This document shows positions 6,130 to 13,043 of a stretch of 64,000 nt of DNA, piece by piece. Position numbers and translations under genes: made by a program. The notes under the pieces were generated by a model that saw only the letters and a list, made by a program, of their open reading frames with translations, had not been told where the DNA came from and did not search any database. Source of the DNA: Oceanicaulis sp. HTCC2633 (GTDB lineage: Bacteria > Pseudomonadota > Alphaproteobacteria > Caulobacterales > Maricaulaceae); the NCBI RefSeq assembly GCF_000152745.1, contig NZ_CH672428.1:2509425-2573424 (forward strand), written 5' to 3'. Each line of letters starts with the position of its first letter. The stretch's first letter is position 1.

Positions 6130-7199
6130 CCCGTCAAGTCGTTCTGATCGGGGCCGGCCATGCCCATATGGAGGCGCTGCGCCAGTCAAAGCGCTTCGCT
6201 AATGCGGGCCTGACGCTGACGCTGATTGACCCGGGCGCCTTCTGGTATTCCGGCGCCGCCACGGGCGTGCTCTCCGGAGCGCTTGATCCCGCTGCGGCGC
6301 GACTGAATCCGGCGGACATGGCTGGTCCGTTCCTGCATGTGCGCCAACGGGTCGCCTCGGTGAATTCTGTGACCCGGACGGTCCGGCTCGAGGACGGTCT
6401 GGAACTCAGTTATGATGTGTTGTCGCTGAATACCGGCAGCCATATCGCCCACACGCCGCTTCTGGAGGCGGGCGCCATTCCCGCCAAACCGGTCAGTGCG
6501 CTCGCCGCGCTTCGGGCGACGGTCGAAACCGCCGGAGGGCGCCTGCGTCTTGCGGTCGCCGGCGCCGGTGCGACAGGGCTGGAGATCGCGCTGTCGCTCG
6601 CCAGCCTGCAGCGCCGGCTGGGCGCGCACCCGCAAATGGTGCTTGCCGGCCCGGATCTGTTGCCGGGCTGGCCGGACAAGGCGCGCGACCTGGCGCGCGA
6701 CGCGATGGCGCGCTGTGGTGTCGAGTATGTGCCCCGCAGAGTGCAGGATCTGTCGATGGGTCTCATCCATTTCGGGGAACGCAGGGTCGCGCCCGTGGAC
6801 ATTCTGGTGGCCGCGACCGGGCTGAGCGCCAATCTTCCCGACGGATTTGACGCGTCCGGTGACGGCTTGCCGGTGAATGAAGACCTGTCCTGGACGGGCG
6901 ATGGCTCGGTGTTCGCTGTGGGTGATTGCGCGCGCATGGTGGATCACCCCCGGCCCAGGCTGGGCGTGTTCGGCGTGCGCGCGGCGCCCATCCTGATCCA
7001 GAATCTGATCAATGCGGCGGGCGGTCGTACGACGCGTCGGCGGTATACGCCGCAATCGCGCTGGCTCTCGATCCTGGATGTGGGCGACGGCACGGGCCTG
7101 GCCCGCTATGGCGATCTCGCCTTTCAGGGCAAACCGGCCCTCACGCTCAAGCGCTGGCTCGACGGCCGCTTCCTGCAACGCTTCCGGGAGGAGCATTGA
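6126..7199 (+). CDS. FAD-dependent pyridine nucleotide-disulfide-type oxidoreductase (NDH-2-like)
   Basis: The N terminus VVLIGAGHAHMEALR is an FAD-binding Rossmann motif of the kind seen in the oxidoreductase family fused to or found near SelD. A second nucleotide motif, LAVAGAGATGLEIALSL, lies near residue 145, and the C-terminal FAD motif VFAVGDCARM near 260. The 357-aa length fits NDH-2-like enzymes, which pass electrons from NAD(P)H to a quinone or other acceptor. The substrate is unknown. It starts with GTG inside the end of the thioredoxin-like gene and its TGA overlaps the ATG of the PhzF gene, so the three form a coupled operon. Confidence 0.82.
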   Translation: MTRQVVLIGAGHAHMEALRQSKRFANAGLTLTLIDPGAFWYSGAATGVLSGALDPAAARLNPADMAGPFLHVRQRVASVNSVTRTVRLEDGLELSYDVLSLNTGSHIAHTPLLEAGAIPAKPVSALAALRATVETAGGRLRLAVAGAGATGLEIALSLASLQRRLGAHPQMVLAGPDLLPGWPDKARDLARDAMARCGVEYVPRRVQDLSMGLIHFGERRVAPVDILVAATGLSANLPDGFDASGDGLPVNEDLSWTGDGSVFAVGDCARMVDHPRPRLGVFGVRAAPILIQNLINAAGGRTTRRRYTPQSRWLSILDVGDGTGLARYGDLAFQGKPALTLKRWLDGRFLQRFREEH

Positions 7200-8014
7200 T
7201 GGAATTTTCCTACGCAGAGATTCACGCCTTTCCCGACGGACCCAAGCCGCATTCGGGCAATCCGGCCGGGGTTGTCCTGCTGCATCGTGATCTGTCGGAT
7301 GCCGACCTTCTGGGGATCGCGCAATCGAACAACCTGTCCGAGACAGCCTATCTCAAGCCCATGGGAGAGAAGGATCAGTGGTCTCTGCGCTGGTTCACGC
7401 CGGGGCTGGAGGTGGAGCTGTGCGGACATGCCACGCTGGCCTCGGCCGCCTGGCTGTTTGAAACCGGCCGCGTGGTGGGACCGGAGGCGCGCTTTCACAC
7501 CCTGTCAGGATTGCTGAAGGTCTCGCGTCTGGAGGATGGCCGGTACCAGATGGATTTCCCGGTGATCGGATATGAGCCGGGCAAGGCCGATTCCGCCGTG
7601 GTTGACGCGCTGGGCGGCGGCGAGCCGGAAGCCGTTTACGAGATCGAACGCGTGCACGGCAATCGCTATCAGATGCTGGTGTTCGCCGATGAAGCCGCCG
7701 TGGTGGGGCTCAATCCCGACATAAAGGCGCTCGAGGCCGCCCGCACCAATGTGATCGCCACGGCGCCGGGACGGGCGTCGGACTTCGTGTCCCGCTTCTT
7801 CGGCCCCGCCAGCGGGGTGGACGAGGATCCGGTGACGGGCTCCGCGCACTGCACGCTGGCGCCGTACTGGTTCCAGCGTCTTGAGAAGACCGCGCTGAAG
7901 GCGCGGCAGGTCGGCCCGCGCTCCGGCGCGCTCGAGGTGCGCGCCGGGGCATCGGGCCGTGTTCTGCTCGTCGGGTCCGCCCTGCGTTATCTGGACGGGG
8001 TGATCCGGCTCTAG
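7199..8014 (+). CDS. PhzF family isomerase
   Basis: This 271-aa protein has the PhzF/YddE fold, related to diaminopimelate epimerase. The proton-shuttling glutamate sits in NNLSETAYL (about residue 48), and the second conserved loop DEDPVTGSAHC is present near residue 215. PhzF of phenazine synthesis isomerises dihydro-hydroxyanthranilate, but most family members have unknown substrates, and no phenazine genes are present here. The start ATG overlaps the preceding TGA (TGATG), so it is translated with the two upstream redox genes. That linkage suggests a shared small-molecule redox task, which is inference. Confidence 0.85.
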   Translation: MEFSYAEIHAFPDGPKPHSGNPAGVVLLHRDLSDADLLGIAQSNNLSETAYLKPMGEKDQWSLRWFTPGLEVELCGHATLASAAWLFETGRVVGPEARFHTLSGLLKVSRLEDGRYQMDFPVIGYEPGKADSAVVDALGGGEPEAVYEIERVHGNRYQMLVFADEAAVVGLNPDIKALEAARTNVIATAPGRASDFVSRFFGPASGVDEDPVTGSAHCTLAPYWFQRLEKTALKARQVGPRSGALEVRAGASGRVLLVGSALRYLDGVIRL

Positions 8015-8017
8015 GTC

Positions 8018-8563
8018 CTAGTGACGGCCATGGCCGTAATGGTCGCGACCGCGTCCGCGGCCATGACCGCGACCATAATGGTCGTATCCGCGACGGCCGT
8101 GGACGACCTGCACGGGCACCGCGCCCCAACGAGTCTCGGCGTAATAGCCGCCCGTGCGACGATCAAGATAGGCGCGATCCGGGCGCAGGCGATCGCCGGT
8201 CCGGCCGTCCCGGGCTTCCCGGCGGCTGGGCACGTAATCCCAGGCGCGGTCCGGGCAATCGATGATCCGGCTGTCCCGGCGGTCCTCGCGGCGATCCCGC
8301 CAGCCGGTATCGCGTCGGCGGTCGCGGCGGTCCTCACGCAGATCCGGGCAGGCATTGGCGTAGACCACGAAATGGCCCTCCGGGCCGTTCCAGCGATACC
8401 CGCGATGATGGGGCTCATAGCCGCGGCGGTGGCCATGGGCCTGAGCCGTTGCCGCAGTGCTGACCGATACGGTCAGATCGGCGGCGTTCGCCGCGGCGGG
8501 CAGGGCGGTGGCGGCAAGTCCGGCGAAGGCGGCCGCCGCAGCCAGTTTTGCGAACAGTTGCAT
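8018..8563 (-). CDS. Secreted Arg/Asp-rich protein of unknown function
   Basis: The 181-aa product begins with a signal peptide (hydrophobic stretch about residues 5-22, cleavage after AANAA near 28). The mature part is extremely charged: a region around residues 75-100 is built of alternating DRRD/REDRRD units. The last 25 residues are a GRGHGRGRG-type tail rich in Gly, His and Arg. The middle holds GGYYAETRWG, which resembles the RcnB-like/periplasmic proteins of alphaproteobacteria, but I cannot assign it. It converges on phzF with a three-base gap. Likely periplasmic; a role in metal or nucleic-acid binding is speculative. Confidence 0.7.
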   Translation of the reverse strand: MQLFAKLAAAAAFAGLAATALPAAANAADLTVSVSTAATAQAHGHRRGYEPHHRGYRWNGPEGHFVVYANACPDLREDRRDRRRDTGWRDRREDRRDSRIIDCPDRAWDYVPSRREARDGRTGDRLRPDRAYLDRRTGGYYAETRWGAVPVQVVHGRRGYDHYGRGHGRGRGRDHYGHGRH

Positions 8564-8727
8564 TGTGTGTCTCCTTCATCCTTGGCCTTCCGGCCTGATG
8601 GGGACGACAATGACGCATCGCGCCTGAACGCATGCTGGGCTAGGCTTTCATGTTCTATTCAACCAGATGAACGATACTGAGCTTGACCGGCGCAAGGGGG
8701 CGTGCGCCAAAAGTGATTGGGGATCCT

Positions 8728-10020
8728 ATGCTTAAATCTGTTTTGGCTGCAGCCGCCGGACTTGTGATGCTGGCGGGCGGCGCCGTCGCCCAGCAATTGA
8801 GCTGGCCGCAGGGCGAGACGTTCACCAGCCGGGACTATCAGGACATCCTGCACCAGGTGACCAAGCCCGGGGCGCGTCCCGCGACCGGAGCCAGCGCCAT
8901 TGCCGGCGATGACAGCTGCCAATACGCCAATGACAATGAGTGTGACGAGCCGGGTCTGGGCACCGGCGCCTGCGTGGCTGGCACGGATCATTCCGATTGC
9001 TGGCGGTTGATGGCGGGCGTCGAGGATGATTCCTGCCAGTGGGCCAATGACGGCGAATGTGATGAGCCCGGCTTCGGCACGGGCGCCTGCACCCAGGCCA
9101 CGGACCGCACCGATTGCGGCGCGCTGATCGAACTGCGCTTCCGCAATGACCAGTGCGAGACGGCTTTCAACGGCGTTTGCGAGGAGCCGGGCGTGGGCAA
9201 TGGCGCCTGCGAGGCGCGGACCGACCGCGCCGACTGCATCGGTCGCGAGCGCCCGATGACCATTCAGGATCATTATTTCGGTCATGATGACCGGGTGCTG
9301 ATGGATACGGGCGTCTTCCCGTGGAGCGTTGTGGGGTACATCGTCTTTGACGCTGGCGGGACCTGCACCGCCACTCTCATTGACGAGGATGTGCTGATCA
9401 CGGCGGCCCATTGCGTATCCGAGAACGGGCGCATCAATGCCGCCGGCGTGTTCCATACCGGCGAGAACCTGCCGGGCGGCGGTCGCTCGGCCCGGGTAAT
9501 CGACTACCTCATGGATTCCGAATGGGATGAAGAGGTCTTCAATGCCGGCGATGACCGCGACGGCACGGACTGGGCCATGCTGCGCATTGACCAGCCGCTG
9601 GGCGCGGAGCTGGGTCATGTGGGTTTCGAGGCGCTGGTGGATGTCGAGGGCCCGCGCGCGGCCCTGCGTGCGCCCATCCGTCAGGCGGGATATTCCTGGG
9701 ACACCGGCGAGCATCTGTCGGGCAATCTTGATTGCCGCATGGTCGAGGTCTTCGACGACAACACCATGGCGCACAATTGCGACACCACGCGCGGGGATTC
9801 CGGATCCCCCTTCATGATCGAACGCAATGGCGAGTGGCGCGTGGTGGCGACCGATTCCAATTTCCGCTCCAATCCGGACGGACCCTTCATCTATATCGCG
9901 GCGCGGTCGGATCGCTGGGTTCCGCTGGTGGCGGACTTCGCCGCGGGACGGATCGGGAATGGCGGCCTGCGTCCGCGCGGGCCGGGCAAGCCTGGCAAGC
10001 CCGAGCCGATCAAGAAATAG
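8728..10020 (+). CDS. Secreted trypsin-like serine protease with three Cys-rich repeats
   Basis: The 430-aa precursor has a signal peptide (residues 1-21, cut after AVA), three four-cysteine repeats at about 61-91, 100-130 and 140-170, then a peptidase S1 domain. The catalytic triad is visible: His228 in LITAAHC, Asp281 in GTDWAMLRID and Ser358 in RGDSGSPF. The tail is Pro/Gly/Lys rich. The start at 8728 is chosen because the signal peptide follows directly; upstream in-frame residues do not look coding. The enzyme should be exported to the periplasm or outside. The repeats could bind metal or a target surface, but their role is unknown. Confidence 0.88.
   Translation: MLKSVLAAAAGLVMLAGGAVAQQLSWPQGETFTSRDYQDILHQVTKPGARPATGASAIAGDDSCQYANDNECDEPGLGTGACVAGTDHSDCWRLMAGVEDDSCQWANDGECDEPGFGTGACTQATDRTDCGALIELRFRNDQCETAFNGVCEEPGVGNGACEARTDRADCIGRERPMTIQDHYFGHDDRVLMDTGVFPWSVVGYIVFDAGGTCTATLIDEDVLITAAHCVSENGRINAAGVFHTGENLPGGGRSARVIDYLMDSEWDEEVFNAGDDRDGTDWAMLRIDQPLGAELGHVGFEALVDVEGPRAALRAPIRQAGYSWDTGEHLSGNLDCRMVEVFDDNTMAHNCDTTRGDSGSPFMIERNGEWRVVATDSNFRSNPDGPFIYIAARSDRWVPLVADFAAGRIGNGGLRPRGPGKPGKPEPIKK
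8908..9237 (+). repeat. Three tandem 31-residue cysteine-rich protein repeats
   Basis: Within the protease, three units share the pattern C-x2-A-N/F-N/D-x2-C-(D/E)EPG-x-G-x-GAC-x3-TD-x2-DC, spaced 39-40 residues apart. Each unit has four cysteines and several acidic residues, consistent with two disulfides and possibly a bound calcium ion. The third is the most diverged. Confidence 0.85.
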
Positions 10021-10032
10021 CCGCAGGCGCGA

Positions 10033-11055
10033 TCAGAACTCCCGGACGAGGGCGAGGTCGGTGCGACTGTCACCGGCCTCGAAGCCCGGCTCGGGGTCAA
10101 ATTCGTAGCGATACCGGTAGCGCAGCTCCAGCGACCACAGATCCCCAAGATCGGTGTTCAGCTTGAAGAGCTGGTCGGCGCGCGCATTGTTGGAAGCCAG
10201 GAACCGGGTTTCAGATTCCAGCCGCATGCTGTCGCTGAGCTGAAGCTCGACATCGGACAGCAGGTCGAATGCGCCCTCATAATAGGAGCCGTTGTCCGCT
10301 TCCTGGATGTATCTCAGGCCGGGTGCGGCGCGGATCGTCCATTCCGCCTTGTCGCGCTGCAGGGCGCGATAGCCGGCGCCGACGCCCATGAAACCCGTCC
10401 AGTCAAAGCCCGAGACCTGGTCGCGCTCCCATTCTGTATTGGTGAACAGGGTCCAGCGGTCACCGGCCTCGCGCTCGCCGCGCGCTTTCAGGATCAGCTC
10501 GTCCCGTCCCACATTGTCGTCCACTTCGGAATAGGAATAGATGATGCTGGATTCAAAGCCCCAGCCGACCAGTTCGCGCTCCGCATCCAGGCCCAGCGTA
10601 TAGTCCAGCCGATCGGTGTCTCCGCTGTCAGCGCGCACGCCCAGCCGGACCTTGCCGGTCCACAGCTCGGATTCAGCCTGGGTCAGCAGCAGGACGGCGG
10701 AGGTCGGGGCGGCGATCCAGAACGGGTCGACCCTGGAGGTCAGCTCGTTCTCGACCGCCGCCTCTTGCAGCTCGGCGTCCACCGCGATCATGGCGGGGGG
10801 CGGAACAGGCGTCACGGGCGCGACCGGCAGGCCCAGCGTTCTGCGGGCTATGATCGCGTGATGATCAGACAGGCGCGCGGCGCCAACTGCGATCCGTTCC
10901 GCCGATTGCGTCAGGGACAGCAGATGGATGGCGTTGGTGAAGACCGCCTCGTCATCCTCCGCCGCAGCCGCCGCCAAGAGCTCCTGGAAAGGGGGGGCGA
11001 GGCCTTCCGCCGGCGCAGCGGCGAGGGTAAGAGCAGCAAAGGCGGACAGGATCAT
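10033..11055 (-). CDS. DUF481 (YdiY-like) outer-membrane protein
   Basis: The 340-aa protein starts with a signal peptide (hydrophobic about residues 2-14). An alanine-rich helical N-terminal part follows. From about residue 130 it shows alternating strands typical of DUF481 beta-barrels, for example GKVRLGVRADSGDTDRLDYTLGLDAE in part, GFMGVGAGYR and LELRYRYRYEFDPEPG. It ends in phenylalanine (LALVREF), as outer-membrane barrels do. E. coli YdiY is called salt-induced, but function is unclear. It converges on the protease gene, 12 bases away. Confidence 0.85.
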   Translation of the reverse strand: MILSAFAALTLAAAPAEGLAPPFQELLAAAAAEDDEAVFTNAIHLLSLTQSAERIAVGAARLSDHHAIIARRTLGLPVAPVTPVPPPAMIAVDAELQEAAVENELTSRVDPFWIAAPTSAVLLLTQAESELWTGKVRLGVRADSGDTDRLDYTLGLDAERELVGWGFESSIIYSYSEVDDNVGRDELILKARGEREAGDRWTLFTNTEWERDQVSGFDWTGFMGVGAGYRALQRDKAEWTIRAAPGLRYIQEADNGSYYEGAFDLLSDVELQLSDSMRLESETRFLASNNARADQLFKLNTDLGDLWSLELRYRYRYEFDPEPGFEAGDSRTDLALVREF

Positions 11056-11206
11056 GCATCAGGCTCCGGGCGGGGATAGGAAAACAAACACATTCGGACG
11101 GGGAAACAAACCCTTGAGCCTGTAAAACTGCCGTATGCCTTGACGCTTGCGCAGGAACGCGGCACGCCTTTGACCTCATTGGCGCTCCTTTGTGACGAGA
11201 TCTGAA

Positions 11207-11941
11207 ATGACCGACCCAGTCGCTGACCGTTATGCCCGCACCGAGCCGCTCTTTCCCGACTGGGCGGCCCCGATCTATTTGTGGGTGTCGGTCGCGGCCT
11301 CGGTGATCTATCTGGGCCTGGACCTGACGACGGCCTCCATGCCGGGGCTGGCGCTGACCAAGGCGCTGGGGATCATCCTGCTGGGCGTCTATGCGCTGCT
11401 CAAACGCGCGCCTGTGCTGGCTGTGGCGCTGCTCTTGTCGGCGGGTGGGGATTACGCCCTCGCCATGCGGCCCCCTCAACTGGAAGCCGGGATCGGCTTC
11501 TTTGGCGCCGCACATCTCACCTACATCGCCATTTTCGCGCTGATGGTCCTGAAGGGCGGGATCAAGCGCGAGGGCCTAGTGCTGGCGGGCGGCCTGTTCG
11601 TCTATGGCGTGGCGATGTGGCTGTGGCTCAATGGCGGCATGGGCGCGCTGATCGCGCCGGCCAGCATCTATCTGGGCATCATCCTGGTGATGGCCATGGC
11701 CGCAGGGATGATCAAAGGCCCCAATCTCATCGTGATCGGGGCCCTGTTGTTCGTGGTGTCGGATTCGGTGCTGGCCATGCGCTGGTTCCGCGGCGTGCTC
11801 GTGTTCGAGAACGGGCTCGACTGGGGCGGCGTCATCGTCTGGGCCACCTATTACGGCGCGCAGCTCTGCCTGACCCTGGGCGTGGTTCGCGCGCGGGCGT
11901 TGCAGGCGATCACGGGGCGGAAGGCTGAGCCGGCGGCTTAG
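11207..11941 (+). CDS. YhhN/TMEM86 family membrane protein (lysoplasmalogenase-like)
   Basis: The 244-aa protein has about eight hydrophobic segments. It carries the family's conserved acidic residues in SAGGDYALAM (near residue 89) and VSDSVLAMRWF (near 185). Animal relatives hydrolyse the vinyl-ether bond of lysoplasmalogens; the bacterial substrate is mostly unknown. The ATG at 11207 is favoured over one five codons earlier because of fit to the family. Its TAG stop overlaps the stop of rpoH by four bases on the opposite strand. Confidence 0.83.
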   Translation: MTDPVADRYARTEPLFPDWAAPIYLWVSVAASVIYLGLDLTTASMPGLALTKALGIILLGVYALLKRAPVLAVALLLSAGGDYALAMRPPQLEAGIGFFGAAHLTYIAIFALMVLKGGIKREGLVLAGGLFVYGVAMWLWLNGGMGALIAPASIYLGIILVMAMAAGMIKGPNLIVIGALLFVVSDSVLAMRWFRGVLVFENGLDWGGVIVWATYYGAQLCLTLGVVRARALQAITGRKAEPAA

Positions 11942-12828
11942 GCCGGCATCAGGCCGCGTTCCTCGGCCAGCCGCTTCATCTCGTTCTGCAGCTTTTCAAA
12001 CGCGCGCACCTCGATCTGGCGGATGCGTTCGCGGCTGACGCCATAGACCTGGGCGAGATCCTCGAGCGTTTTCGGCTCCTCGGTGAGGCGGCGTTCCTGG
12101 ATGATGTTCTGCTCACGCTCGTTCAGCGCGCCCATGGCCTCCTGTAGGAGGGTCATGCGCATGGAGAATTCATCGGATTCCGCGAGCTCGTCCTCGGCGT
12201 CATCCGCATCATCATCGGCCAGCCAGTCCTGCCATTCCGCCTCGCCATCCGCGCGCATCGGCGCGTTAAGGGACGCATCGGGGCCGGACAGGCGACGGTT
12301 CATGGAGATGACGTCGTCATCGGTGACGCCGAGCTTGGTGGCGATTTCCTCGACCTGATCGGGGCGCAGATCGCCCTCGTCCAGCGCGCGCATCTGGCTC
12401 TTCATCCGGCGGAGGTTGAAGAACAGCTTCTTCTGTGCGGCGGTGGTGCCCATTTTCACCAGCGACCAGGAGCGCAGGATGTATTCCTGGATCGAGGCGC
12501 GGATCCACCACATGGCGTAGGTCGCCAGGCGGAAGCCCTTGTCCGGATCGAACTTCTTCACCGCCTGCATCAGGCCCACATTGCCCTCGCTGATCACCTC
12601 GGCGATCGGCAGGCCATAGCCGCGATAGCCCATGGCGATCTTGGCCACGAGACGCAGGTGCGAGGTGACAAGCTGGTGGGCGGCGTCAGAATCCTCGTGT
12701 TCCTGCCAGCGCTTGGCCAGCATGAACTCCTGATCCTTCTCCAGCATGGGGAATTTCCGGATCTCCGCGAGATATCGCGACAGACCGGCTTCGGGCGACA
12801 TGGTCAGCGCCGTTTTCATGTTTGCCAT
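11938..12828 (-). CDS. rpoH: RNA polymerase sigma-32 factor (heat shock)
   Basis: This sigma factor directs transcription of heat-shock genes. The 296-aa protein has region 2 (FDPDKGFRLATYAMWWIRASIQ, in part) near residues 93-115. The RpoH box QKKLFFNLR at 132-140 distinguishes sigma-32 from sigma-70. A C-terminal region 4 helix-turn-helix (LAQVYGVSRERIRQIE) follows. A very acidic insert of alternating D, E and A lies near residues 200-225. I chose the ATG at 12828 because GGGGAG precedes it; a longer in-frame version starting at 12885 has an unrelated N terminus. The 215-base upstream gap should contain its promoter. Confidence 0.95.
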   Translation of the reverse strand: MANMKTALTMSPEAGLSRYLAEIRKFPMLEKDQEFMLAKRWQEHEDSDAAHQLVTSHLRLVAKIAMGYRGYGLPIAEVISEGNVGLMQAVKKFDPDKGFRLATYAMWWIRASIQEYILRSWSLVKMGTTAAQKKLFFNLRRMKSQMRALDEGDLRPDQVEEIATKLGVTDDDVISMNRRLSGPDASLNAPMRADGEAEWQDWLADDDADDAEDELAESDEFSMRMTLLQEAMGALNEREQNIIQERRLTEEPKTLEDLAQVYGVSRERIRQIEVRAFEKLQNEMKRLAEERGLMPA

Positions 12829-13043
12829 GGTTGTCACTCCCCAGTGAGCCCTTGGCGCCGACGGAATGACCAGCGCCGCGTTCATTTAGGTAGCCGATTT
12901 GCAGATTGGTAGGGGTCACAAGCCAGTGAAGCTGAAACCCGATCTGACACATCCTGCAATAAACCAGAAAACGGCGCCCAGATTAAGGCTCTCAGCGGAA
13001 ACAATGTATTGCTCTCGCGCGAAAGCCCGCGAAAACTGACCCC

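Follow-up and report, generated by a model that had tools for sequence, protein, structure and literature searches.

Why does a bacterial protease of the trypsin type carry three small cysteine-rich repeats in front of its catalytic domain, and what are these repeats? The question is raised by a gene at 8728-10020 (+) of a 64,000-nucleotide stretch from Oceanicaulis sp. HTCC2633, which is called the window here. The ATG at 8728 matches the starts of close orthologs in an alignment of 24 proteins, and the encoded protein has 430 amino acids. It begins with a probable Sec signal peptide, called by eye (residues 1-22; 8728-8793, +). After it come a stretch of lower conservation, the three repeats, a linker and finally the trypsin-like domain. 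The repeats occupy residues 61-91 (8908-9000, +; Cys 64, 72, 82 and 91), 100-130 (9025-9117, +; Cys 103, 111, 121 and 130) and 140-170 (9145-9237, +; Cys 143, 151, 161 and 170). They contain 12 of the 16 cysteines of the protein; the other four are in the protease. Translation of 8728-10017 (+) shows the spacing C-x7-C-x9-C-x8-C in all three 31-residue units. When residues 23-190 were shuffled 100,000 times, 56 shuffles contained one copy of this pattern and no shuffle contained more. The original prediction of three four-cysteine repeats ahead of a trypsin-like protease is borne out by the translation and by the Pfam match given below, and the span that it assigned to them (8908-9237) corresponds exactly to residues 61-170. 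It also described the units as nearly identical, which is right for the cysteine spacing but less apt once the acidic residues in the third repeat are considered. Mean identity within the repeat classes is 0.81, 0.80 and 0.68, compared with 0.73 between repeats 1 and 2 and 0.49-0.51 between repeat 3 and either of the others (400 random pairs each). The first two repeats strongly resemble each other, and the third forms a distinct, terminal class.

The enzyme is of a known kind. Residues 195-367 match the Pfam family PF00089 (44.6 bits against a cut-off of 20.6; E 2e-11), and this match, the alignment and a structural model place the S1 domain at residues 190-410 (9295-9957, +). The apparent catalytic triad, assigned by motif, consists of His228 (9409-9411, +), Asp281 (9568-9570, +) and Ser358 (9799-9801, +), and these residues are invariant in all 24 aligned proteins. 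Asp352 lies six residues before the catalytic serine, a position that we take to be like that of Asp189 in trypsin, with no claim as to specificity. In the full-length model most ten-residue blocks of the protease have a pLDDT of 79-97, and single blocks drop to 60 and 70. The top match to the protease domain is YdgD from E. coli (7uxg; phmmer 6.5e-19, Foldseek 7.2e-14), which has the motifs FGHDDRV and CDT..GDSGSP in common with it; the glutamyl endopeptidase of Bacillus intermedius (1p3c) also matched (phmmer 4.5e-7, Foldseek 7.9e-12). Both are more distant solved relatives, which appear to consist essentially of the protease domain without repeats: most of their 273 and 215 residues, respectively, are matched, so that a repeat array would not fit, judging from chain length.

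The original prediction held that the domain formed by the repeats could not be named, and our searches agree. Pfam, NCBIfam, PHROGs and profile searches of PDB sequences gave no name for the window repeats, and the libraries used contained no well-studied domain that matched them. When 126 repeat pairs were searched, no consistent Pfam or NCBIfam family emerged, and the window pair had no Pfam match at all. The weak names that came up among the 126 pairs were set aside; they were EGF_STAB1-2 (16 pairs, best 0.12), Gamma-thionin (13, best 0.55), DUF6061 (10, best 0.0033), single matches to Kelch_3 (0.0035) and Crisp (0.0039), and the VirB4 model of NCBIfam (6 pairs, best 0.0096). Among PDB sequences, the four-cysteine profile retrieved only phosphatidylinositol 5-phosphate 4-kinase chains (E 1.4-1.5), which we took as chance. 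A literature search with repeat motif strings and terms returned nothing on the repeat, which is weak evidence because such strings are rare in full text. The repeats behave as one family. The window repeats have the core C-D-[DE] ... D-x-x-D-C and match the family profile A2, but their scores (2.2e-17, 4.9e-17 and 1.2e-15) are high by construction since all three are rows of A2. Independent support comes from the finding that a single window repeat retrieves relatives in other genomes, and A2 also finds proteins outside its own alignment, e.g. L142 and L143 at 9e-13. The module is real, conserved and unnamed in the libraries searched, and it looks like an undescribed building block. The repeat is uncommon in broad samples of the class and phylum: one window repeat as query found 7 of 289 class genomes, A2 found 12 of 398 phylum genomes (several through two-cysteine relatives, see below) and a two-cysteine profile found 14 of 385 class genomes (several through four-cysteine proteins), each count including the window's own genome.

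The original prediction considered the repeats as small disulfide or calcium-binding modules on a secreted S1 protease. This idea fits the data, since the cysteines and the D-x-x-D-C core are invariant and the other acidic positions nearly so. Among 197 unique repeats, Asp is found at C3+5 and C3+8 in 100%, an acidic residue at C2+1 in 92% and at C2+2 in 96%, and C1+5 is Asp in 86% or Asn in 13%; this pattern of acidic positions suggests calcium. The predicted modules also fit because of the probable signal peptide and because AlphaFold2 modeled repeats 1-2 with high confidence and almost no regular secondary structure (126 rows; pLDDT 94.7, pTM 0.78, two helices, no strands). The full-length model, built from 24 rows, gave the repeats a pLDDT of only about 31-40 and no trusted placement relative to the protease; the confidence of the model therefore depends on the alignment. 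A Foldseek search of the PDB with the two-repeat model resulted in four matches (best E 2.0), viral structures gave 4.7 at best, and with VIA-align none of five chains reached Z >= 2. Because Foldseek performs poorly on strand-free folds, the missing PDB match is weak evidence of newness and does not imply a new fold.

A variant of the module speaks to the pairing of the cysteines. Repeats were picked out by C2 and the D-x-x-D-C core, with no requirement for C1 or C3. C1 and C3 were both present in 330 distinct repeats and both absent in 25, and there was no repeat with one of them alone. The two-cysteine form (FGDD..WANDGECDDPRF..DATDC), an unnamed module from other Proteobacteria, differs from the window module by the absence of exactly Cys1 and Cys3 and by a longer loop. 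Nonetheless, hhalign aligned the two profiles over all 32 columns with a score of 53.4, which none of 150 permutations reached under either of two nulls, and the similarity argues that the two forms are related. Two-cysteine proteins (L145, L149, L168) matched no Pfam family above the cut-off, and the two-cysteine profile matched no PDB sequence. The joint absence of C1 and C3 suggests disulfides between C1 and C3 and between C2 and C4 as the simplest arrangement, since a 1-4/2-3 pairing would orphan one cysteine of each bond. The two-cysteine form may have a single origin, in which case this evidence amounts to about one observation rather than 25.

In the genomes searched, the array goes together with this type of protease. 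A search with the full protein found matches in 51 of 137 family genomes (own genome included), and three repeats were present in 30 of 30 loci among the matches listed, the window gene among them. The protease domain by itself (E<=1e-8) was also searched against a sample of 249 genomes from the order. Fifty genomes, the own one included, had a match and 199 had none. The best match in each of the 50 has three repeats (49 counted by script, L241 by reading its translation), and no protease domain without any repeat was met at this threshold among the 249 genomes. Relatives lacking the repeats, which would have spoken against the original prediction, were therefore not seen among the 50 matching genomes. 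In four of the 50 genomes secondary matches were tandem paralogs with one repeat each. In two pairwise comparisons with close relatives, dN/dS was 0.030 and 0.051 for the repeats, lower than the 0.080 and 0.084 of the protease, with 0.206 and 0.115 for the N-terminal stretch and 0.00 and 0.025 for the linker; the low values of the repeats may in part be due to the many Cys, Asp and Gly positions that any small module needs.

Next to the protease the geometry is nearly fixed. When species genomes were scanned for the pattern DGECD[ED]P[GR], 400 stretches came up, 255 of which were relatives; the best 80 of the 255, chosen by closeness to the window repeat, represent 79 distinct loci, and all counts in this paragraph refer to these best 80 of 255. 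Repeats occur in 84 open frames at the 79 loci, and 73 of these frames were scored because they have a downstream GDSGSP-type motif. The 11 frames left out carry a variant of the motif (L068, L073, L094, L106, L113, L126), are truncated or masked (L090, L127) or are without protease (L136, L139, L140). The 73 proteases carry one (5), three (50), four (7), five (2), six (2), seven (2), eight (3) or nine (2) copies, these numbers being lower bounds where a locus ends within the gene. The spacer before the last repeat is 12 amino acids long in 67 of 68 cases and the next one outward 10-11 in 67 of 68, while those further out vary in length. The conserved linker (residues 171-189; 9238-9294, +) contains the motifs GRERP and FGHDDR, and the distance from the last repeat cysteine to GxDDR is 14 residues in 70 of 73 proteins. 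Two of the three exceptions have no GxDDR and the third, L062, was scored at a later GDDR; its protein is the same as L006, which has the usual spacing in the 24-protein alignment.

The explanation that we prefer, although we consider its chances only about even, is that the gene encodes a probably exported mosaic protease, in which small disulfide modules, probably held by calcium, form an N-terminal array, either retained or regulatory, whose role would be to position or restrain the protease. After export the cysteines would be oxidised, and three 31-residue modules with disulfides 1-3 and 2-4 would make a stiff array. Each module would probably bind one calcium ion, with the acidic N/D-D-G-E-C-D-E loop on one side and the invariant D-x-x-D-C motif at the last cysteine on the other. 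The innermost module, at its fixed distance from the protease, would belong to a core that is structurally part of the enzyme, and the outer modules, which are gained or lost in relatives, would more likely serve reach or surface binding. We divide core from outer part in this way because the inner repeat and linker are fixed, conservation is strong and the number of outer copies varies. The array would in this way position or restrain the protease; the full-length model lends no structural support to a contact between the two. Also at odds with this explanation are the nearest solved enzymes, 7uxg and 1p3c, which appear to be little more than a protease domain, and the single-repeat paralogs described below, of whose repeats only two in five resemble the terminal class.

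The main rival is that the repeats are a propeptide, which aids folding or blocks the enzyme and is then cut off in the conserved linker. It owes this rank to the solved chain of 1p3c, which starts at the linker: in the phmmer alignment window residue 185 corresponds to chain residue 4 of 1p3c, which would put the mature start within the linker, and a chain start so close to it fits removal of the repeats. The linker itself, with its arginines, its near lack of amino acid replacement and its constant length in 70 of 73 proteins (best 80 of 255 relatives), would suit a cleavage site. However, propeptides usually drift faster than their enzyme, and these repeats drift more slowly than the protease. 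Arrays of up to 9 copies and proteins made of repeats alone also suggest that the module has a role in its own right. We consider the propeptide possible, but on the unlikely side.

The occurrence of the module on other proteins bears on a further alternative, namely that the repeats are mainly a tag for a surface or ligand and have no effect on the protease. Five proteins, apparently exported, consist of repeats only (L044, L057, L136, L140, L181). By pattern L044 has 11 repeats, L057 and L181 have 10 each, and L140 has 12, or 13 by HMM. In L058 the repeats stand beside Sel1 and peptidoglycan-binding domains, and in L191 beside DUF4189. The proteins made almost entirely of repeats (L044, L057, L140, L181), L058 and the variable number of outer copies would suit a tag. 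On the other hand, the three-repeat core and its spacing near the protease are almost invariant, beyond what a loose tether needs, and we regard a pure tag as quite improbable. Some of L044, L057, L140 and L181 have Gly/Pro-rich spacers between their repeats. L144 and L148 are very acidic proteins rich in Ala, Glu and Asp, with frames of 664 and 661 amino acids and a C-terminal pair of two-cysteine repeats.

The known modules LNR and LDLa have a different make-up. LNR modules have six cysteines, which pair C1-C5, C2-C4 and C3-C6. It is highly improbable that the window repeats are divergent members of the Lin12/Notch (LNR) or LDL-receptor class A (LDLa) families: LNR units do have the short motifs DG-x-CD and D-x-x-D-C in common with them, but both families have six cysteines against four per unit here, neither profile matches (PF00066 and PF00057 are absent from the 23 weak Pfam matches of the 126 repeat pairs), A2 aligned with LNR over just 8 columns with a score equaled in 6/150 and 11/150 column permutations and with LDLa at a score equaled in 19/150 and 13/150, the joint absence of C1 and C3 is at odds with the LNR pairing, and Foldseek, weak as it is for such folds, found no PDB match even though Notch NRR entries are in the PDB. 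The module may still work like LNR or LDLa, by analogy and without being shown to be either. In the Notch LNR triplet, three small modules adjoin a regulated proteolytic region and guard a substrate site (PMC2726630). The triplet is not joined to a protease, unlike the window repeats.

Returning to the preferred mosaic protease, eukaryotes provide a parallel. Matriptase, with its LDLa array, and the coagulation factors are mosaic S1 proteases, and like the window protein they have tandem small disulfide/calcium modules (predicted here) ahead of the S1 domain. The window protein differs from them in being bacterial, and LDLa is unrelated to its repeats by the profile test. A second case is found at L178:655-2139(-), where two two-cysteine repeats precede a Trypsin_2 (DegP-like) protease; this suggests a second, separate joining of the module family to a protease. 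A more far-reaching proposal would be that the repeats are a new, small calcium-folded disulfide domain of bacteria, paired 1-3/2-4 and thus of a distinct topology, from which bacteria built calcium-gated mosaic proteases at least twice. We hold this to be unlikely; if true, the YdgD-like and Trypsin_2/DegP-like lines would parallel the LDLa- or EGF-bearing proteases of animals. Identification of this conserved module, unnamed in the libraries searched, would give a handle on, and a testable role for, a set of bacterial proteins, chiefly from alphaproteobacteria among those found, and would provide an uncomplicated bacterial example of a protease linked to a putative disulfide/calcium array.

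The genes around the protease (window 7199-12885) encode a PhzF-like protein, a 181-residue protein without a Pfam match, a DUF481 protein and a YhhN protein; a further neighbor resembles, by eye, an RNA polymerase sigma factor. PhzF-like and YhhN genes are present in the flanks of 32 and 31, respectively, of the 79 loci (best 80 of 255 relatives). Because these neighbors have been retained near the protease, a recent origin of the gene from a mobile element looks unlikely. Plasmid and phage collections gave no match. A fourth weak match in the own genome (L004, E 1.34) was rejected because it lies in an antisense frame. Among the best 80 of 255 relatives, the nearest named records are from Oceanicaulis and Maricaulis, and the closest repeat, from Oceanicaulis sp. 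MMSF_3324, is identical. Some metagenome assemblies among the same 80 that are named for other groups (Anaerolineae, Trueperaceae, Hydrogenophilaceae) also carry matches; they may be misbinned, and we draw no inference on other phyla. One ortholog, L252 (G027:C1:123900-126000), has a frame of 637 amino acids in which the protease match is split and an insertion lies between query residues 122 and 134.

At five loci (L066:1852-2958(+), L071, L080, L096 and L102), the three-repeat gene is preceded by a tandem paralog that has only one repeat. We had expected this single repeat to be of the terminal class, but it resembles that class in only two of the five (L066 and L102) and is mixed in the other three. 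In all five paralogs the protease contains, immediately ahead of QAGYS, an insert of about 50 residues that includes two hydrophobic segments resembling transmembrane helices. Among the multi-repeat proteases, 70 of 74 have no such hydrophobic segment behind the repeats, and the other four have one.
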